A DNA stretch of 40,017 nucleotides. It comes from Bacteroidales bacterium (GTDB taxonomy: Bacteria; Bacteroidota; Bacteroidia; Bacteroidales; F082). This document shows positions 2,422-20,976 of the stretch, in pieces. The stretch's first letter is position 1, and each line of letters opens with the position of its first letter. A program made the translations under genes and the position numbers. Where the stretch lies: the NCBI GenBank assembly GCA_015489465.1, contig WFZS01000176.1:1-40017 (forward strand). Direction: 5' to 3'. Below the pieces are notes generated by a model. The model worked only from the letters and a program-made list of their open reading frames with translations. It made no database searches and was not told the origin of the DNA.

Positions 2422-3612
2422 ATGAAAATAGTAAATAAATTAAACGTAATATACTTTTTTATAATCTCAAGTTTGTTGCTTGTTTTTTTGGCATCTTGTA
2501 ACAGCAAAACAACGGAAAATAAGGAAGAAGAGGAACTGGAAACTTCAGGTGAAATGGTTCCTGTAACCCTCACTTCAACGCAGGTTAGAGCATTATCAAT
2601 AAAAGCCGACACAATGGCTAAATATGTTTTTAAAGATGCCGTTGAGGTTAACGGATATCTTAATGTGCCGCCGCAAAACAAAGCGTCGGTAACGGCAATT
2701 ATAGGTGCCAATGTTTCATCGATTAATGTTTTCGAAGGAGATAAAGTTGAAAAAGGGCAGTTGCTTGCCTATTTGAGCCACCCTAACTTGCTTGACATCC
2801 AAACGGAATATCTTAATGCCGTCAATCAACTGGAGTTTTTAAAACAGGAATTTGAGCGTCAGAAAAAACTTTATGAGGAAAATGTAGGTTCCGGAAAAGC
2901 ATATCAAAAAGCGAGAGCCGATTATTTTACGCTTAAAGGAAATATTATGAACCTGGAAGCAAAACTGAAACTTTTAAACTTAAATCCCGGAGAAATTAAA
3001 CGGGGAACCATTTATGAAAAAGTGCCGGTATTAAGTCCCATAGAGGGTTACGTTGAAAAAGTCGATATACAAACAGGCAAGTATGTGGAACCTCAAACAC
3101 CATTGTTTGAAATAGTGAATAACGACAAGGTTCACGCTGACTTGATGGTTTTTGAAAAAGATGTTGCCAAGGTGAAAAAAGGTCAAAAAGTTGTCTTTAA
3201 CGTGGAAACGATTCCGGGTGAACCTTTAATTGCCACAATTTTTGCCGTAGGAAAAACATTTGAGCAGAACCCAAAAGCCGTTCATGTCCATGCCGATATT
3301 AATAATAAAAAAGGCAAACTTATTCCGGGTATGTACATAACGGGAAGGATTGCTACATCAAACAGGTTTGCCGATGCTTTACCCGAAGATGCGGTTGTAA
3401 AGGAGTCGGGTAAGTCATACATATTTACTGTTCAAACCGGGGATGACAAATGGATTTTTACTCCCGTGGAAGTTGTTACCGGTGATGAGGAAGACGGTTG
3501 GGTTGAAATAAAACCGCTTACATCGTTAAAACCGGGAGTAAAAATAGCCCGTAACGGTGCATATTACATCCTTTCGGAAATGAAAAAGAACGAAACCGGA
3601 GATGATGATTAA
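2422..3612 (+). CDS. RND efflux periplasmic adaptor (membrane fusion) lipoprotein, CusB-like
   Basis: Adaptor that links the inner-membrane RND pump to the outer-membrane channel. The 396-residue product begins with a lipoprotein signal (FFIISSLLLVFLASC), with the lipid-anchored Cys near residue 26. A barrel-sandwich/lipoyl-like segment follows (VTAIIGANVSSINVFEGDKV, near 90-115), then a helical hairpin (NQLEFLKQEFERQKKLYEEN), the second half of the lipoyl domain (VPVLSPIEGYVEKVDIQTG) and a beta-barrel domain. This is the normal HlyD/CusB order and length. It lies 36 bases after the pump-channel fusion and 30 bases before the cytochrome gene, in one operon. No N-terminal metal-binding extension is evident. 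Confidence 0.93.
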   Translation: MKIVNKLNVIYFFIISSLLLVFLASCNSKTTENKEEEELETSGEMVPVTLTSTQVRALSIKADTMAKYVFKDAVEVNGYLNVPPQNKASVTAIIGANVSSINVFEGDKVEKGQLLAYLSHPNLLDIQTEYLNAVNQLEFLKQEFERQKKLYEENVGSGKAYQKARADYFTLKGNIMNLEAKLKLLNLNPGEIKRGTIYEKVPVLSPIEGYVEKVDIQTGKYVEPQTPLFEIVNNDKVHADLMVFEKDVAKVKKGQKVVFNVETIPGEPLIATIFAVGKTFEQNPKAVHVHADINNKKGKLIPGMYITGRIATSNRFADALPEDAVVKESGKSYIFTVQTGDDKWIFTPVEVVTGDEEDGWVEIKPLTSLKPGVKIARNGAYYILSEMKKNETGDDD

Positions 3613-3642
3613 AACATATGTCGAACAAAAAAATTTAAAAAA

Positions 3643-4365
3643 ATGAAAAAGAAATTATTTATCCCTGCAACTATTATATTGTTAGTTGTAATTACCTTAA
3701 CGGGATTTAAAAATATTAACACTGTTAGTAATATTGATGATAAAAATCCCCTACAAGATTCTACACTTGTAACAGGTAAAGATATCTATCTACAAAACTG
3801 TGCAGCATGCCACAAACCCGATTTGTCGGGAACACCGCCTTCTTTCCCGAGTTTAAAAGATATCTCGAAAAAGTATAGCAGGGAAGAGCTTGCTTCAATA
3901 CTGGAAAACGGAAGAAATGCCATGCCTTCTTTCAAACATTTGTCAAAACAGGAAAGAGATGCAGTAATAGGTTTTCTTTTGGGTGAAGAGACAACAGCCG
4001 AAGTAACAACAAACATTTCCCCCGTAGAAAACGGACACAGGCTTTTTGTTGCCAACTGTTCAAGTTGCCACAAGGCAAAACCTGATGACCCCGAACCCAC
4101 AGGGGTAAAAGATTACGGTATGAAACCGGCTGTTTTGGGAGGTATAAACAAAGTTTACGACTTTGAAAAATTTACGAAAGTGCTAAATGCAGGTCCCTGT
4201 TACATGCCTTCTTTTGTTGATCTTTCCGAAAAAGACAAAAAGGATATTTACGATTATCTTAGTAGCATTAAAAATGATGAAATGCCCCGTGGGAAAATGA
4301 TGCATGGAAAAGAAAAGATGTGCAGAGGACGAGGCATGGGAATGGGCAAATGCAAAATGAAATAG
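3643..4365 (+). CDS. Dihaem c-type cytochrome with Met/Cys-rich C-terminal tail
   Basis: A 240-residue exported electron-transfer protein. An N-terminal hydrophobic segment (residues 5-20) serves as signal peptide or membrane anchor. There are two cytochrome c domains, with haem motifs CAACH near residue 52 and CSSCH near 137. Each is followed by a candidate axial Met (NAMPSF near 106; CYMPSF near 190). The last 25 residues are rich in Met, Cys, His, Lys and Gly (GKMMHGKEKM, then GMGMGKCKMK), which resembles a soft-metal binding tail. It lies inside the metal-efflux operon, 30 bases after the adaptor and 21 before the transporter. A role in copper redox or handling is inferred from tail and context; the cytochrome assignment itself is direct. 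Confidence 0.88.
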   Translation: MKKKLFIPATIILLVVITLTGFKNINTVSNIDDKNPLQDSTLVTGKDIYLQNCAACHKPDLSGTPPSFPSLKDISKKYSREELASILENGRNAMPSFKHLSKQERDAVIGFLLGEETTAEVTTNISPVENGHRLFVANCSSCHKAKPDDPEPTGVKDYGMKPAVLGGINKVYDFEKFTKVLNAGPCYMPSFVDLSEKDKKDIYDYLSSIKNDEMPRGKMMHGKEKMCRGRGMGMGKCKMK

Positions 4366-5201: not shown

Positions 5202-5774
5202 ATGGAAAATACTACACTTTACATAAAAAACATGGTTTGCAACCGTTGTATCATGGCGGTTGAAAACGAATTGAAAAATCTTGGACTTAAACCCATGAAT
5301 GTTATTTTGGGTGAGGCTGTTGTTGAAGGTGATGTTGACAAGGAAACTTTAAACAAACTTGATGAAAACCTTCAAAAAATAGGATTTGAGTTGATTGATG
5401 ACAAGAAAAGTCGCCTTATAGAAAGTATCCGTACCGAGGTTATTAACTATGTTCATTACGACCCCGAAAGAATAGGAAAGATAAATTTCTCGGATTATAT
5501 TTCGGACAAACTGGGCTACGATTACTCTTATCTGAGTACCCTTTTTTCGGCAGTAGAGGGAATTACCATTGAGAAATTTATAATACTTCAACGAATTGAG
5601 AGGGTTAAAGAACTTTTGATTTATGATGAGGAGACTCTTTCTGAAATAGCTTATCTTACAGGATATTCAAGCGTACAGCACCTTTCCAATCAATTCAAAA
5701 AAATTATAGGGATGAGTCCCACGGTTTTTAAAAAAACGAGAAAGAAAGAACGCAAACCGCTGGATGAAGTTTAG
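5202..5774 (+). CDS. HMA-domain / AraC-type helix-turn-helix fusion regulator
   Basis: Probable metal-responsive transcription regulator of the upstream efflux genes. Residues 1-65 are an HMA-like domain with an intact metal motif, NMVCNRCIM (Cys13 and Cys16). Residues 75-190 are a compact AraC DNA-binding domain with two helix-turn-helix units (FSDYISDKLGYDYSYLSTLF and LSEIAYLTGYSSVQHLSNQF, then GMSPTVFKK). This architecture, metallochaperone-like sensor fused directly to AraC, is short compared with ordinary AraC proteins of about 300 residues. It is the last gene of the operon. The final codons (RKPLDEV-stop) are duplicated near 6130-6161 beyond a repeat element. Metal sensing is inferred from the intact CxxC. 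Confidence 0.87.
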   Translation: MENTTLYIKNMVCNRCIMAVENELKNLGLKPMNVILGEAVVEGDVDKETLNKLDENLQKIGFELIDDKKSRLIESIRTEVINYVHYDPERIGKINFSDYISDKLGYDYSYLSTLFSAVEGITIEKFIILQRIERVKELLIYDEETLSEIAYLTGYSSVQHLSNQFKKIIGMSPTVFKKTRKKERKPLDEV

Positions 5775-5793
5775 AAGATATTCAGGAATTTTT
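5741..5793 (+). repeat. Left copy of direct repeat covering the 3' end of the HMA-AraC gene
   Basis: About 53 bases spanning the last codons and stop of the regulator gene plus roughly 18 bases beyond. They recur at 6129-6181 with about 80% identity by eye. The two copies bracket the 230-bp element. Confidence 0.75.
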
Positions 5794-5874
5794 ACCGAAA
5801 TAATAAGCCTCGACAATAGGTATATTTTATACTGAAATTCTTTCTTTTTTTTGCAATTTTTAAAAAATGCGTGT

Positions 5875-6106
5875 GGGTTCCCAAAACTACGGGACAGCGT
5901 GAGGGTGAATGATAAAAGGCTTAAAGCTACGAGGAAAAGCGCTTGCGTTTCGGCTTCAAACAATTTAGGCGGGGTTTTAGCGGGAAAGCGTTTGAATGCG
6001 ACTCTTTTTCCGAAGATGTTACCTTTTATCAGAGCAGGAGGAAGTATAAGTTTTGGGTCGCCTTCTTTGGTTCCTTTCTTGGCGAAACAAGAAAGGAACA
6101 TAAAAA
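5875..6106 (+). repeat. Dispersed ~230-bp repeat element, copy 1
   Basis: Non-coding repeat that matches 20100-20327 end to end in the same orientation. Shared blocks are gggttcccaaaac, gcgcttgcgtttcggcttca, gcgtttgaatgcgactcttt and ttttgggtcgccttctttgg. It ends with a perfect 12-bp hairpin at 6070-6099. Open frames run across it on both strands, including a plus-strand frame from 5943 that runs on into the duplicated regulator tail and stops at 6161. Differences between copies are not confined to third positions, so I do not call a protein. Confidence 0.85.
6070..6099 (+). other. Perfect 12-bp hairpin in repeat element copy 1
   Basis: Left arm gttcctttcttg (6070-6081), loop gcgaaa, right arm caagaaaggaac (6088-6099). 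The equivalent hairpin in copy 2 (20291-20320) has two base pairs changed on both arms (T-A to A-T, C-G to A-T), which keeps the stem perfect. There is no T-tract after it, so a simple terminator is unlikely. Confidence 0.88.
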
Positions 6107-6128
6107 AGCTTTGGGAGCTCCAATGTGG

Positions 6129-6181
6129 AAAGAAAAACGCAAGCCGCTGGACGAGGTTTAGAAAAAATTCAGGATTTTTTT
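6129..6181 (+). repeat. Right copy of the HMA-AraC 3'-end duplication
   Basis: Repeats 5741-5793, including an in-frame RKPLDEV-stop ending at 6161. Within those codons the copies differ only at third positions (AAA/AAG, GAT/GAC, GAA/GAG). It also overlaps the minus-strand stop of the DUF2442 remnant at 6169-6171, so it looks like the meeting point of two convergent genes. Confidence 0.75.
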
Positions 6182-6590: not shown

Positions 6591-6595
6591 GGGGG

Positions 6596-6700
6596 TTGTC
6601 ACGGTGAGTGATGCGACCTTTAGGAGCATCGTATCGAACCGTGCGAGGAATGGCTTGTCCCGCCACATTTCGACAGGCTCAATGTGACAGCCTCCCCTTC
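6596..6700. repeat. REP-like inverted repeats
   Basis: Two imperfect palindromes. One has arms cacggt (near 6610) and accgtg (near 6645), with TGAG and TCGA inside and a nested tgatgc/gcatcg stem. The other reads cacatttcgacaggctcaatgtg near 6663-6685. Both show the CAC..TGAG..TCGA..GTG architecture of bacterial REP sequences. Related palindromes occur near 39710-39800. Confidence 0.65.
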
Positions 6701-6705
6701 CTACA

Positions 6706-6935
6706 ATTACGTCATTTATGATTGTTGAAATTTTTTTCTTCCCCCTACCAATGACGTAACTTGTAAAGGGTGGATAATCAAGGGGATATAAGTTTTGAAA
6801 AATCATATATTTTCACAATATCTCTGTTCTAAACGTCATTTACCGATTGTTGAAAGATTTTTTTCTTCTCTCTCAATGTGACAGCCTCCCCATCCTACAA
6901 TTACTTCATTTACCTATTGTTAAGAAAATTTCTCC
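6706..6935. repeat. Intergenic repeat family, locus 1
   Basis: A block at 6745-6868 matches 18398-18518 (roughly 85% identical by eye; shared segments cttgtaaagg, tggataatcaagggg, atatctctgttctaaacgtc). It is bracketed by a direct repeat of about 33 bases, acgtcattta.. gattgttgaaa then T-rich then cttc, at 6714-6745 and 6834-6867. A weaker third copy is at 6903-6935. No coding potential is evident. Confidence 0.75.
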
Positions 6936-19937: not shown

Positions 19938-19947
19938 AAACAATCCT

Positions 19948-20012
19948 CTTTACAAATCAACCCCGAATTTCAGTACTGCACCGTGATGCATATCACCGTT
20001 GAAAAATGCTTT
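19948..20012 (-). repeat. Orphan copy of the 3' end of the small outer-membrane protein gene
   Basis: 65 bases identical to 20331-20395 except for two substitutions. Read on the minus strand it encodes FFNGDMHHGAVLKFGVDL-stop, the exact C-terminus of the 20333-20893 gene. With the original it brackets repeat-element copy 2. Confidence 0.9.
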
Positions 20013-20099
20013 ATGCTTACGGTGATATAAAAATCCGATTAAAATAAAAGTTGGCATAATAGATTGTAATAGTTCTATTTTCAGCAAGTATGACGGGGA

Positions 20100-20327
20100 G
20101 GGTTCCCAAAACAGCGAGCCGGCAAGGGCGTGAATTATAAAAAGTTTACAGATACTGCAAAAGCGCTTGCGTTTCGGCTTCAAACATTTAGGCAGGCTTT
20201 GAGTGCAGGCGTTTGAATGCGACTCTTTTGCCATAAATGTTGCTTTTTATAAGAGCGGGGAGAAGCATTTGTTTTGGGTCGCCTTCTTTGGTAACTTTCT
20301 TGGCGAAACAAGAAAGTTACATAAACA
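20100..20327 (+). repeat. Dispersed ~230-bp repeat element, copy 2
   Basis: Second copy of the element at 5875-6106, same orientation, roughly 70-75% identical by eye, with long perfect blocks (gcgcttgcgtttcggcttca; gcgtttgaatgcgactcttt; ttttgggtcgccttctttgg). It lies between the convergent genes ridA and the outer-membrane protein gene. About 87 bases (20013-20099) of unassigned sequence separate it from the left duplicated tail. Confidence 0.85.
20291..20320 (+). other. Perfect 12-bp hairpin in repeat element copy 2
   Basis: gtaactttcttg (20291-20302), loop gcgaaa, caagaaagttac (20309-20320). Stem positions 3 and 4 differ from copy 1 on both arms, so pairing is conserved while sequence is not. 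Confidence 0.88.
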
Positions 20328-20332
20328 ATACT

Positions 20333-20893
20333 TTACAAATCAACCCCGAATTTCAGTACTGCACCGTGATGCATATCACCATTGAAAAATGTTTTCAAAA
20401 ACGCTTTTATCCCCAGTGAAAACCTGTTATTTAAGCGGAATGTATCTTCAACTATGACAAGCGCACCACCGAAGGCCGTTTCATTCCGGAATATATAATC
20501 GTTGTAATAATGCCCCATATAATAATAAGATGAGGATAAATATGTATCCGAAATGTTAAAAACCGATATGCCGCTTCCTACTCTGAAATCATTCAATCCG
20601 TTGTTCTTACAAGGAGATATGAACAAATTTAAACTTCCTTCGATAAACATTGCCGAAGAGTGGTCGCCGGTAAAATTCTTGCCCACATCAAGTGTGGCGG
20701 AAGTTGTAAAGTAGTTGCTGATTTTATAATTAAGTTCGTTTTCAAAGTTGATACACATATAATCCCCCGAACTTAAAAACGATATTCCGGTTCCGGTACG
20801 TAAGTCGAATTTTGAAAAACCGGTATTTTGTTTCGTTTGTGAAAACAGCGTTACGGAAACTAAAATTAAAGCTATTGTAAATATTTTTTTCAT
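20333..20893 (-). CDS. Small outer-membrane beta-barrel-like protein, unknown function
   Basis: 186 residues. The ATG at 20893 is chosen because it opens a clear signal peptide (MKKIFTIALILVSVTLFSQ); codons upstream of it overlap a terminator hairpin. The mature part has alternating strands and glycines (FDLRTGTGISFLSSGDYMCI, LDVGKNFTGDHS, FRVGSGISVFNI, FGGALVIVEDTFRLNNRFSL) and ends GAVLKFGVDL, as in an eight- to ten-stranded barrel. No named family recognised. Its last 60-odd bases are duplicated at 19948-20012. Confidence 0.7.
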   Translation of the reverse strand: MKKIFTIALILVSVTLFSQTKQNTGFSKFDLRTGTGISFLSSGDYMCINFENELNYKISNYFTTSATLDVGKNFTGDHSSAMFIEGSLNLFISPCKNNGLNDFRVGSGISVFNISDTYLSSSYYYMGHYYNDYIFRNETAFGGALVIVEDTFRLNNRFSLGIKAFLKTFFNGDMHHGAVLKFGVDL

Positions 20894-20922
20894 GGTGTTT
20901 GTGTTTTTTGATTGAATGTAAA

Positions 20923-20954
20923 AAAAGCCATACCCGGTTAAAGATATGGCTTTT
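20923..20954 (-). terminator. Terminator-like hairpin after the EF-G paralogue gene
   Basis: Perfect 10-bp inverted repeat: aaaagccata (20923-20932) and tatggctttt (20945-20954). On the minus strand it lies 22 bases beyond the stop of the EF-G-like gene and ends in a run of T. Confidence 0.75.
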
Positions 20955-20976
20955 ATAATAAATGAAGTAAACAAAA

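Follow-up and report, generated by a model that had tools for sequence, protein, structure and literature searches.

A structured sequence dispersed in a Bacteroidales genome is probably carried by decayed MITEs of the IS1634 type

Introduction

The window analysed here, a 40,017-nucleotide stretch of contig WFZS01000176.1 from a Bacteroidales bacterium, contains two copies of a sequence of about 230 bp, each of which ends in a perfect hairpin. The locus raises the questions of how the same sequence came to lie at both sites, and whether its folding is maintained as RNA or as a DNA cruciform, both of which an earlier note on this DNA had proposed. The evidence set out below makes it likely that the two repeats are shortened, decayed copies of a non-autonomous IS1634-type MITE, and that they carry a conserved structured core.

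Results and discussion

Two copies of a dispersed sequence in the window

In a search of the organism's own genome, the copies at 5875-6106 and 20100-20327 aligned with 81% identity over 233 bp (E=5e-56), which excludes a chance likeness. The 12-bp perfect hairpin with a GCGAAA loop is present at the end of both. In copy 1 it is formed on the plus strand by the stem arms GTTCCTTTCTTG (6070-6081) and CAAGAAAGGAAC (6088-6099) around the loop at 6082-6087, and in copy 2, also on the plus strand, it occupies 20291-20320, with the arms GTAACTTTCTTG (20291-20302) and CAAGAAAGTTAC (20309-20320) on either side of GCGAAA. Two adjacent stem pairs differ between the copies on both arms (T-A to A-T and C-G to A-T), as the earlier note had described. 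Consistent with the view that no clear protein is encoded, the open reading frames overlapping the copies contain no Pfam family above cut-off. The hairpin indeed lacks a T-tract and is followed instead by A-rich sequence; a terminator search found no terminator-like site, and an intrinsic terminator was rejected on these grounds.

The extent of 230 bp turned out to be too narrow. Copy 1 is a plus-strand remnant of about 5794-6127, with direct repeats on either side and a core homologous to full-length relatives, and copy 2 is a plus-strand remnant of about 20013-20322, again between direct repeats; a complete relative measures 853 bp.

Nor are the window copies alone. The genome to which they belong (G000; 2.74 Mb in 209 contigs, 98% complete) contains seven near-full copies, two of them on contig C176 and one each on C7, C82, C64, C40 and C192, together with two partial copies on C146 and C7. 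Many more are found in relatives, since the element is present in six related genomes, namely three of the four sister genomes of the genus and G006, G028 and G040 of the same family; these carriers are Bacteroidales or Bacteroidetes MAGs. Phage records gave no match to the element, a pattern scan of viral contigs found nothing, and plasmid records gave weak matches, the best in Iodobacter and Variovorax. A literature search with the motif sequences returned no matching paper. On contig C7 of G000, at about 3576-4273 (L130), two cores stand in tandem and have in common a 185-bp flank that is 97% identical, the array being truncated where the contig stops.

The hairpin is the last helix of a larger conserved fold

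The terminal hairpin is not a stand-alone unit. The consensus from an alignment of 23 cores is a nested fold of about 220 nt, in which helices P1 to P4 are joined by the hairpin as the last helix. In copy 1 the RNAalifold consensus and the pair counts over the 23 copies place the core at 5880-6057 of the plus strand, with P1 at 5880-5887/6050-6057, P2 at 5910-5920/6021-6031 and P3 at about 5928-5940/6002-6013; the apical P4 was placed by inspection at 5955-5961/5990-5996. In copy 2 the core, terminal hairpin included, lies at 20104-20321 of the plus strand and scores 234 bits with covariance model R1, of which it is itself one of the source sequences.

The helices change sequence from genome to genome and retain their pairing. 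P1 is CCCAAAAC/GTTTTGGG, and in G006 CCGAAAC/GTTTCGG. P2 is TGATAAAAGGC/GCCTTTTATCA in most copies of the genus, TGGCAAAAGGCA/TGCCTTTTGCCA in G002, TGCCGAAAAGC/GCTTTTCGGCA in G006 and GAAACAGC/GCTGTTTC in G028. P3 consists of stacked segments with conserved bulges, and the P4 hairpin, compared by eye, is entirely different between genera (for example CTCTTGC/GCAAGAG in G006). The sequence TTCTTTGG precedes the terminal hairpin.

Over the 23 copies, 96.6% of 1027 pairing cells are able to pair, against 85.7% after shuffling; double changes occur in 23 of 46 pairs (12.3 in shuffles) and in 105 cells (29.2 in shuffles). None of 500 shuffles reached the observed value on any of these measures, which leave the kinship of the copies uncorrected, and sliding one arm by 1-3 columns lowers pairing to 45-52%. 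Folding of copy 1 as a single sequence was no better than its shuffles (z -0.95). As judged from these alignments, the core has retained its pairing in several bacterial genera despite many changes, which are matched on the two arms. The claim that compensatory change maintains the structure therefore stands, although not for the reason first given: the two-pair difference between the window copies is weak evidence alone, because one quasi-palindrome (template-switch) event is enough to rewrite a perfect hairpin on both arms, and the strong covariation evidence comes from the other helices. Neither the core nor the full-length loci, searched at a permissive threshold, reached the gathering score of any family in Rfam 15, including the group II introns and HEARO, and identity with an Rfam family was rejected.

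The plus strand of the core probably folds as RNA

The G-U and A-C states within the helices bear on the form in which the core is folded. Within P1, P2, P3 and the terminal hairpin there are 39 G-U or U-G cells against 5 A-C or C-A cells, and, with two short helices left out, 14 pair columns have a G-U state against 3 with A-C; in these counts kinship is uncorrected, the cells are not independent and the structure itself was found under rules that allow G-U. A double-stranded cruciform offers no reason for such a preference on one strand, and so the cruciform alternative is disfavoured and the plus strand probably folds in single-stranded form. This suggests that the core probably acts as a folded RNA when transcribed from that strand. 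The transcript would then form P1 to P4 and the terminal hairpin, and candidate functions would be that of a 3'-end structure on mRNAs or that of an RNA encoded by the element.

Template-switch correction is an established mechanism acting on imperfect hairpins, and it could be argued that the compensatory changes are its by-product, from quasi-palindromes, so that the fold has no function. One event could indeed make the two-pair change in the terminal hairpin, and the elements are rich in inverted repeats. Set against this, some 100-170 nt separate the two arms of P1 and of P2, G-U states are retained more readily than A-C, and the sequence of the bulges and of an asymmetric internal loop, CGCTTGCGTTT opposite GACT, stays constant next to helices that vary; such a loop does not look like the product of template-switch repair, which would tend to remove it. 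A by-product of this kind is therefore considered unlikely.

Long direct repeats flank the element

In copy 1, the sequence at 5740-5793, which covers the 3' end of an AraC-type gene (5202-5774), is 87% identical to 6128-6180 (E=7e-14), so that the end of the gene is duplicated to the right of the element. In copy 2, the sequence at 19938-20012 is 93% identical to 20323-20395 (E=1e-28), and the right-hand repeat covers the 3' end of a minus-strand open reading frame (20333-20974). These pairs have the form of target duplications. When the left flank of each copy was compared with its own right flank, all eight copies examined, both window copies among them, matched at E<=4e-11, these copies having been chosen for repeats seen in an earlier scan or for both ends being readable, with those cut by contig ends left out; among mismatched flank pairs only 3 of 56 matched, and weakly (E>=4e-4, <=31 bp). 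The repeats are divergent, of roughly 40-184 bp, and several are the 3' ends of genes: 54 bp at L001, 75 bp at both L004 and L006, about 125 bp at L005, 80 bp at L007, 184 bp at L101, 63-67 bp at L104 and about 41-45 bp at L035. No long repeat was seen at L056, L102, L106, L107 and other tested copies, or at the copies of G006.

The L005 repeat consists of the last codons of uvrB. This gene end is single, with no core after it, in sister genomes G003 and G004 and is duplicated in G000, and the duplication therefore arose in the G000 lineage. The uvrB copy served here in place of window copy 2, for which no empty site was found in the relatives, where synteny is lost.

One could suppose that the direct repeats are tandem duplications that have nothing to do with transposition, and that a repeat-prone core was caught between them. 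The locus L002, which was left out of the duplication count, does lie in a tandem array, with a second partial core preceding the repeat. The same layout, however, recurs at eight different sites with the repeats at or near the ends of the element, uvrB is unduplicated in G003 and G004, and IS1634-type elements have been reported to make such repeats (PMC2266710). Taken together, these points make unrelated tandem duplication very unlikely.

Full-length relatives have the ends of a DNA transposon

Beyond the core, copies from G001, G002, G003, G040 and G028 have left flanks in common over some hundreds of bases, up to about 540 bp, and the full-length relatives measure about 850 bp. The complete element of G003 (853 bp) starts with CTGTTTTCCGCAC and stops with GTCCCAATGCGGAAAACAG, which constitute a terminal inverted repeat of 12-14 bp, and the same inverted repeat, with changes, is present in copies from G002 and G040. 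In the window copies the inverted repeats are eroded or indistinct, in copy 2 especially; a probable eroded right repeat of copy 1 lies at 6113-6127 of the plus strand (CCAATGTGGAAA, compared with CCAATGCGGAAAACAG in G003).

The left half of the full-length element contains a second nested fold, whose stability far exceeds that of shuffles in each of the four copies folded (L101, L104, L035 and L044; z values -7.7, -4.2, -5.0 and -3.2 over the four). In the same four loci, L101 being the left half of the 853-bp element, this fold displays repeated CTAAAA / TTAACG internal-loop motifs. Short palindromic inserts (for example CCCGAAAGCTTTCGGG and CCCGCCTGAATGACTTTAGTCGGGCAGG), apparently other small repeats, are nested inside the element at L041, L056, L052 and L035.

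These ends bear directly on a SINE-like origin, in which a structured RNA would have been copied into DNA by target-primed reverse transcription. Retrotransposition was the first idea after the long repeats were seen, and it would account for a constant 3' end with an A-rich tail, for a 5' end that varies and for duplications of great and variable length; in the window genome the left ends of the copies do differ, an A-rich tail is present, and the length of the duplications is both great and variable. The idea was dropped in view of the terminal inverted repeats of the full-length relatives, which are shared with an insertion sequence (IS) that encodes a DDE transposase, and of the absence of an RVT_1 reverse transcriptase from G000 and from most carriers tested. 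A SINE-like origin now appears highly improbable.

Near the left end of the complete G003 element lies an inverted relative of the TTTGG hairpin. This could suggest a REPIN-like element, whose inverted pairs would be recognised at TTTGG and the hairpin, and moved, by a Y1 (RAYT) transposase, and Y1 transposases are encoded in 12 of the 16 genomes tested. Y1_Tnp is absent, however, from the window genome and from three other carriers, and no convincing core adjoins any of 30 Y1 loci; on both grounds the RAYT/REPIN explanation was rejected. Moreover, IS200/IS605-type transposition is not known to make target duplications. The likeness to REPINs, which are mobilised by RAYT (PMC3116915), thus lies in the full-length copies, where a short motif with its hairpin occurs as an inverted pair, and the difference lies in the lack of a nearby or own-genome Y1 gene, in the long target duplications and in the DDE-type ends. 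There is very little to be said for movement by a Y1 transposase.

An IS1634-family insertion sequence has matching ends

A pattern search with the inverted repeat led to an IS in the sister genome G001 (contig C158), which runs from CCTGTTTTCCGCAC to GCGGAAAACAGG over 1,636 bp to the contig end. Its transposase matches NF033559, the IS1634 family, at E=1.1e-102 (344.6 bits against a cut-off of 100). The IS and the full-length relatives have CCTGTTTTCCGCA ends in common and are homologous over about 85 bp on the left and about 35 bp on the right. A transposase 82% identical to that of G001 is encoded in G005, in an IS with the same left end; no long repeat lies in the short stretch of right flank at hand, this being the only IS copy open to such a check.

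IS1634 of Mycoplasma mycoides and IS1549 of Mycobacterium smegmatis have likewise been reported with long, variable direct repeats, of 8-514 bp, most members of the IS1634 family making duplications of 5-6 bp; a 2008 review gave no mechanistic model for the very long repeats (PMC2266710). The present element has what marks a MITE of this family, namely terminal inverted repeats shared with an IS1634-family partner, long and variable duplications and no transposase of its own, which bears out the earlier suggestion of a non-autonomous mobile element. It differs from the family in lacking a transposase gene, in carrying a conserved structured core that is absent from the IS, and in its Bacteroidales host. 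In the proposed mechanism an IS1634-family DDE transposase would mobilise the MITE in trans, recognising the terminal inverted repeats CCTGTTTTCCGCA...TGCGGAAAACAGG, and insertion would leave about 40-184 bp of sequence, often the 3' end of a gene, as direct repeats; for the window copies the same route may be supposed. The genome to which they belong has no match to the G001 transposase, and its copies therefore look like relics, a status that fits their eroded ends and their 82-93% identical repeats.

Reports of IS1634-type insertions that leave very long target duplications are few, and a Bacteroidales case is hereby added; the availability of a MITE with intact ends together with its likely transposase makes the mechanism of long duplication testable.

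The core recurs in other surroundings

The complete genome G006 contains 14 strong core matches, whose surroundings are of at least two kinds. In one of them the probable inverted repeats are TCAACTTTCGCA...GCGAAAGTTGA; inspection by eye showed short candidate duplications there, and long ones are absent. A further flank type surrounds the core in G028 and G040. The core thus sits in different vehicles, and its recurrence in elements with other ends makes it likely that the core is a module selected for some function in its own right. A covarying structured sequence is thereby exposed that lies outside every Rfam family and inside otherwise different mobile elements; if this cargo is selected for RNA folding, it would offer a useful clue to the role of such repeats at the 3' ends of genes.

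Elsewhere in the phylum, and in Betaproteobacteria, the matches are weaker. With covariance model R1, G422 gave a clear relative (84 bits), and G219, G154, G353 and G310 gave weaker ones (30-47 bits). In the alignments of these relatives, P1, P2, the GAGCG segment, TCTTTGG and the terminal hairpin are all kept, and the stem sequences are largely different. On an Iodobacter plasmid (Betaproteobacteria), a 44-base stretch surrounding the hairpin matches at 93% and the score is 35 bits, and loci in Oscillospiraceae have mainly the hairpin segment in common. The spread of the core across phyla is at present a lead rather than a result, because single-sequence folding of the Iodobacter, Variovorax and G154 core loci was no better than shuffles. 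Tentatively, the core could belong to an old, unnamed family of structured RNAs in Bacteroidota and Proteobacteria, possibly also Firmicutes, which became transposon cargo through a shared RNA function; its plan would have P1 as the outer helix and, inside it, a long hairpin with GAGCG-type internal loops at its limits, followed by TCTTTGG and the terminal hairpin. This joint reading, plan included, is put forward as a possibility to which we give somewhat less than an even chance.

Several observations were made at these distant loci. Repeats on betaproteobacterial plasmids, in Variovorax (L163, about 1370-1560) and Iodobacter (L162, about 1870-2050), end in GGGTCGCCTTCTTT and the hairpin motif, and the Variovorax repeat also matches Comamonas. 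An Oscillospiraceae MAG contains the CTTCTTTGGTTCCTTTCTTG hairpin (L082, L089 and L091), in one case as two inverted copies separated by about 500 bp. Two contigs of G310, C17 and C20 (L241 and L242), hold many families of non-coding direct repeats, the core-like elements lying in one orientation per contig. An integron-like array was considered for this one-orientation arrangement, on a contig crowded with non-coding repeat families; no integron was identified in G310, in a search that included no direct test for integrase genes or attC sites.

Bacterial MITEs and small structured repeats are exemplified by ERIC, Correia/NEMIS and bcr1, and the present element resembles these in being short, non-coding, dispersed, intergenic, foldable and moved in trans. 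It differs from them in its length of up to 850 bp with two nested folds, in its very long target duplications and in a core common to elements with different ends. A separate and more abundant dispersed repeat lies in the window at 6593-6931, with dozens of matches in the same genome, some at 90-98% identity.
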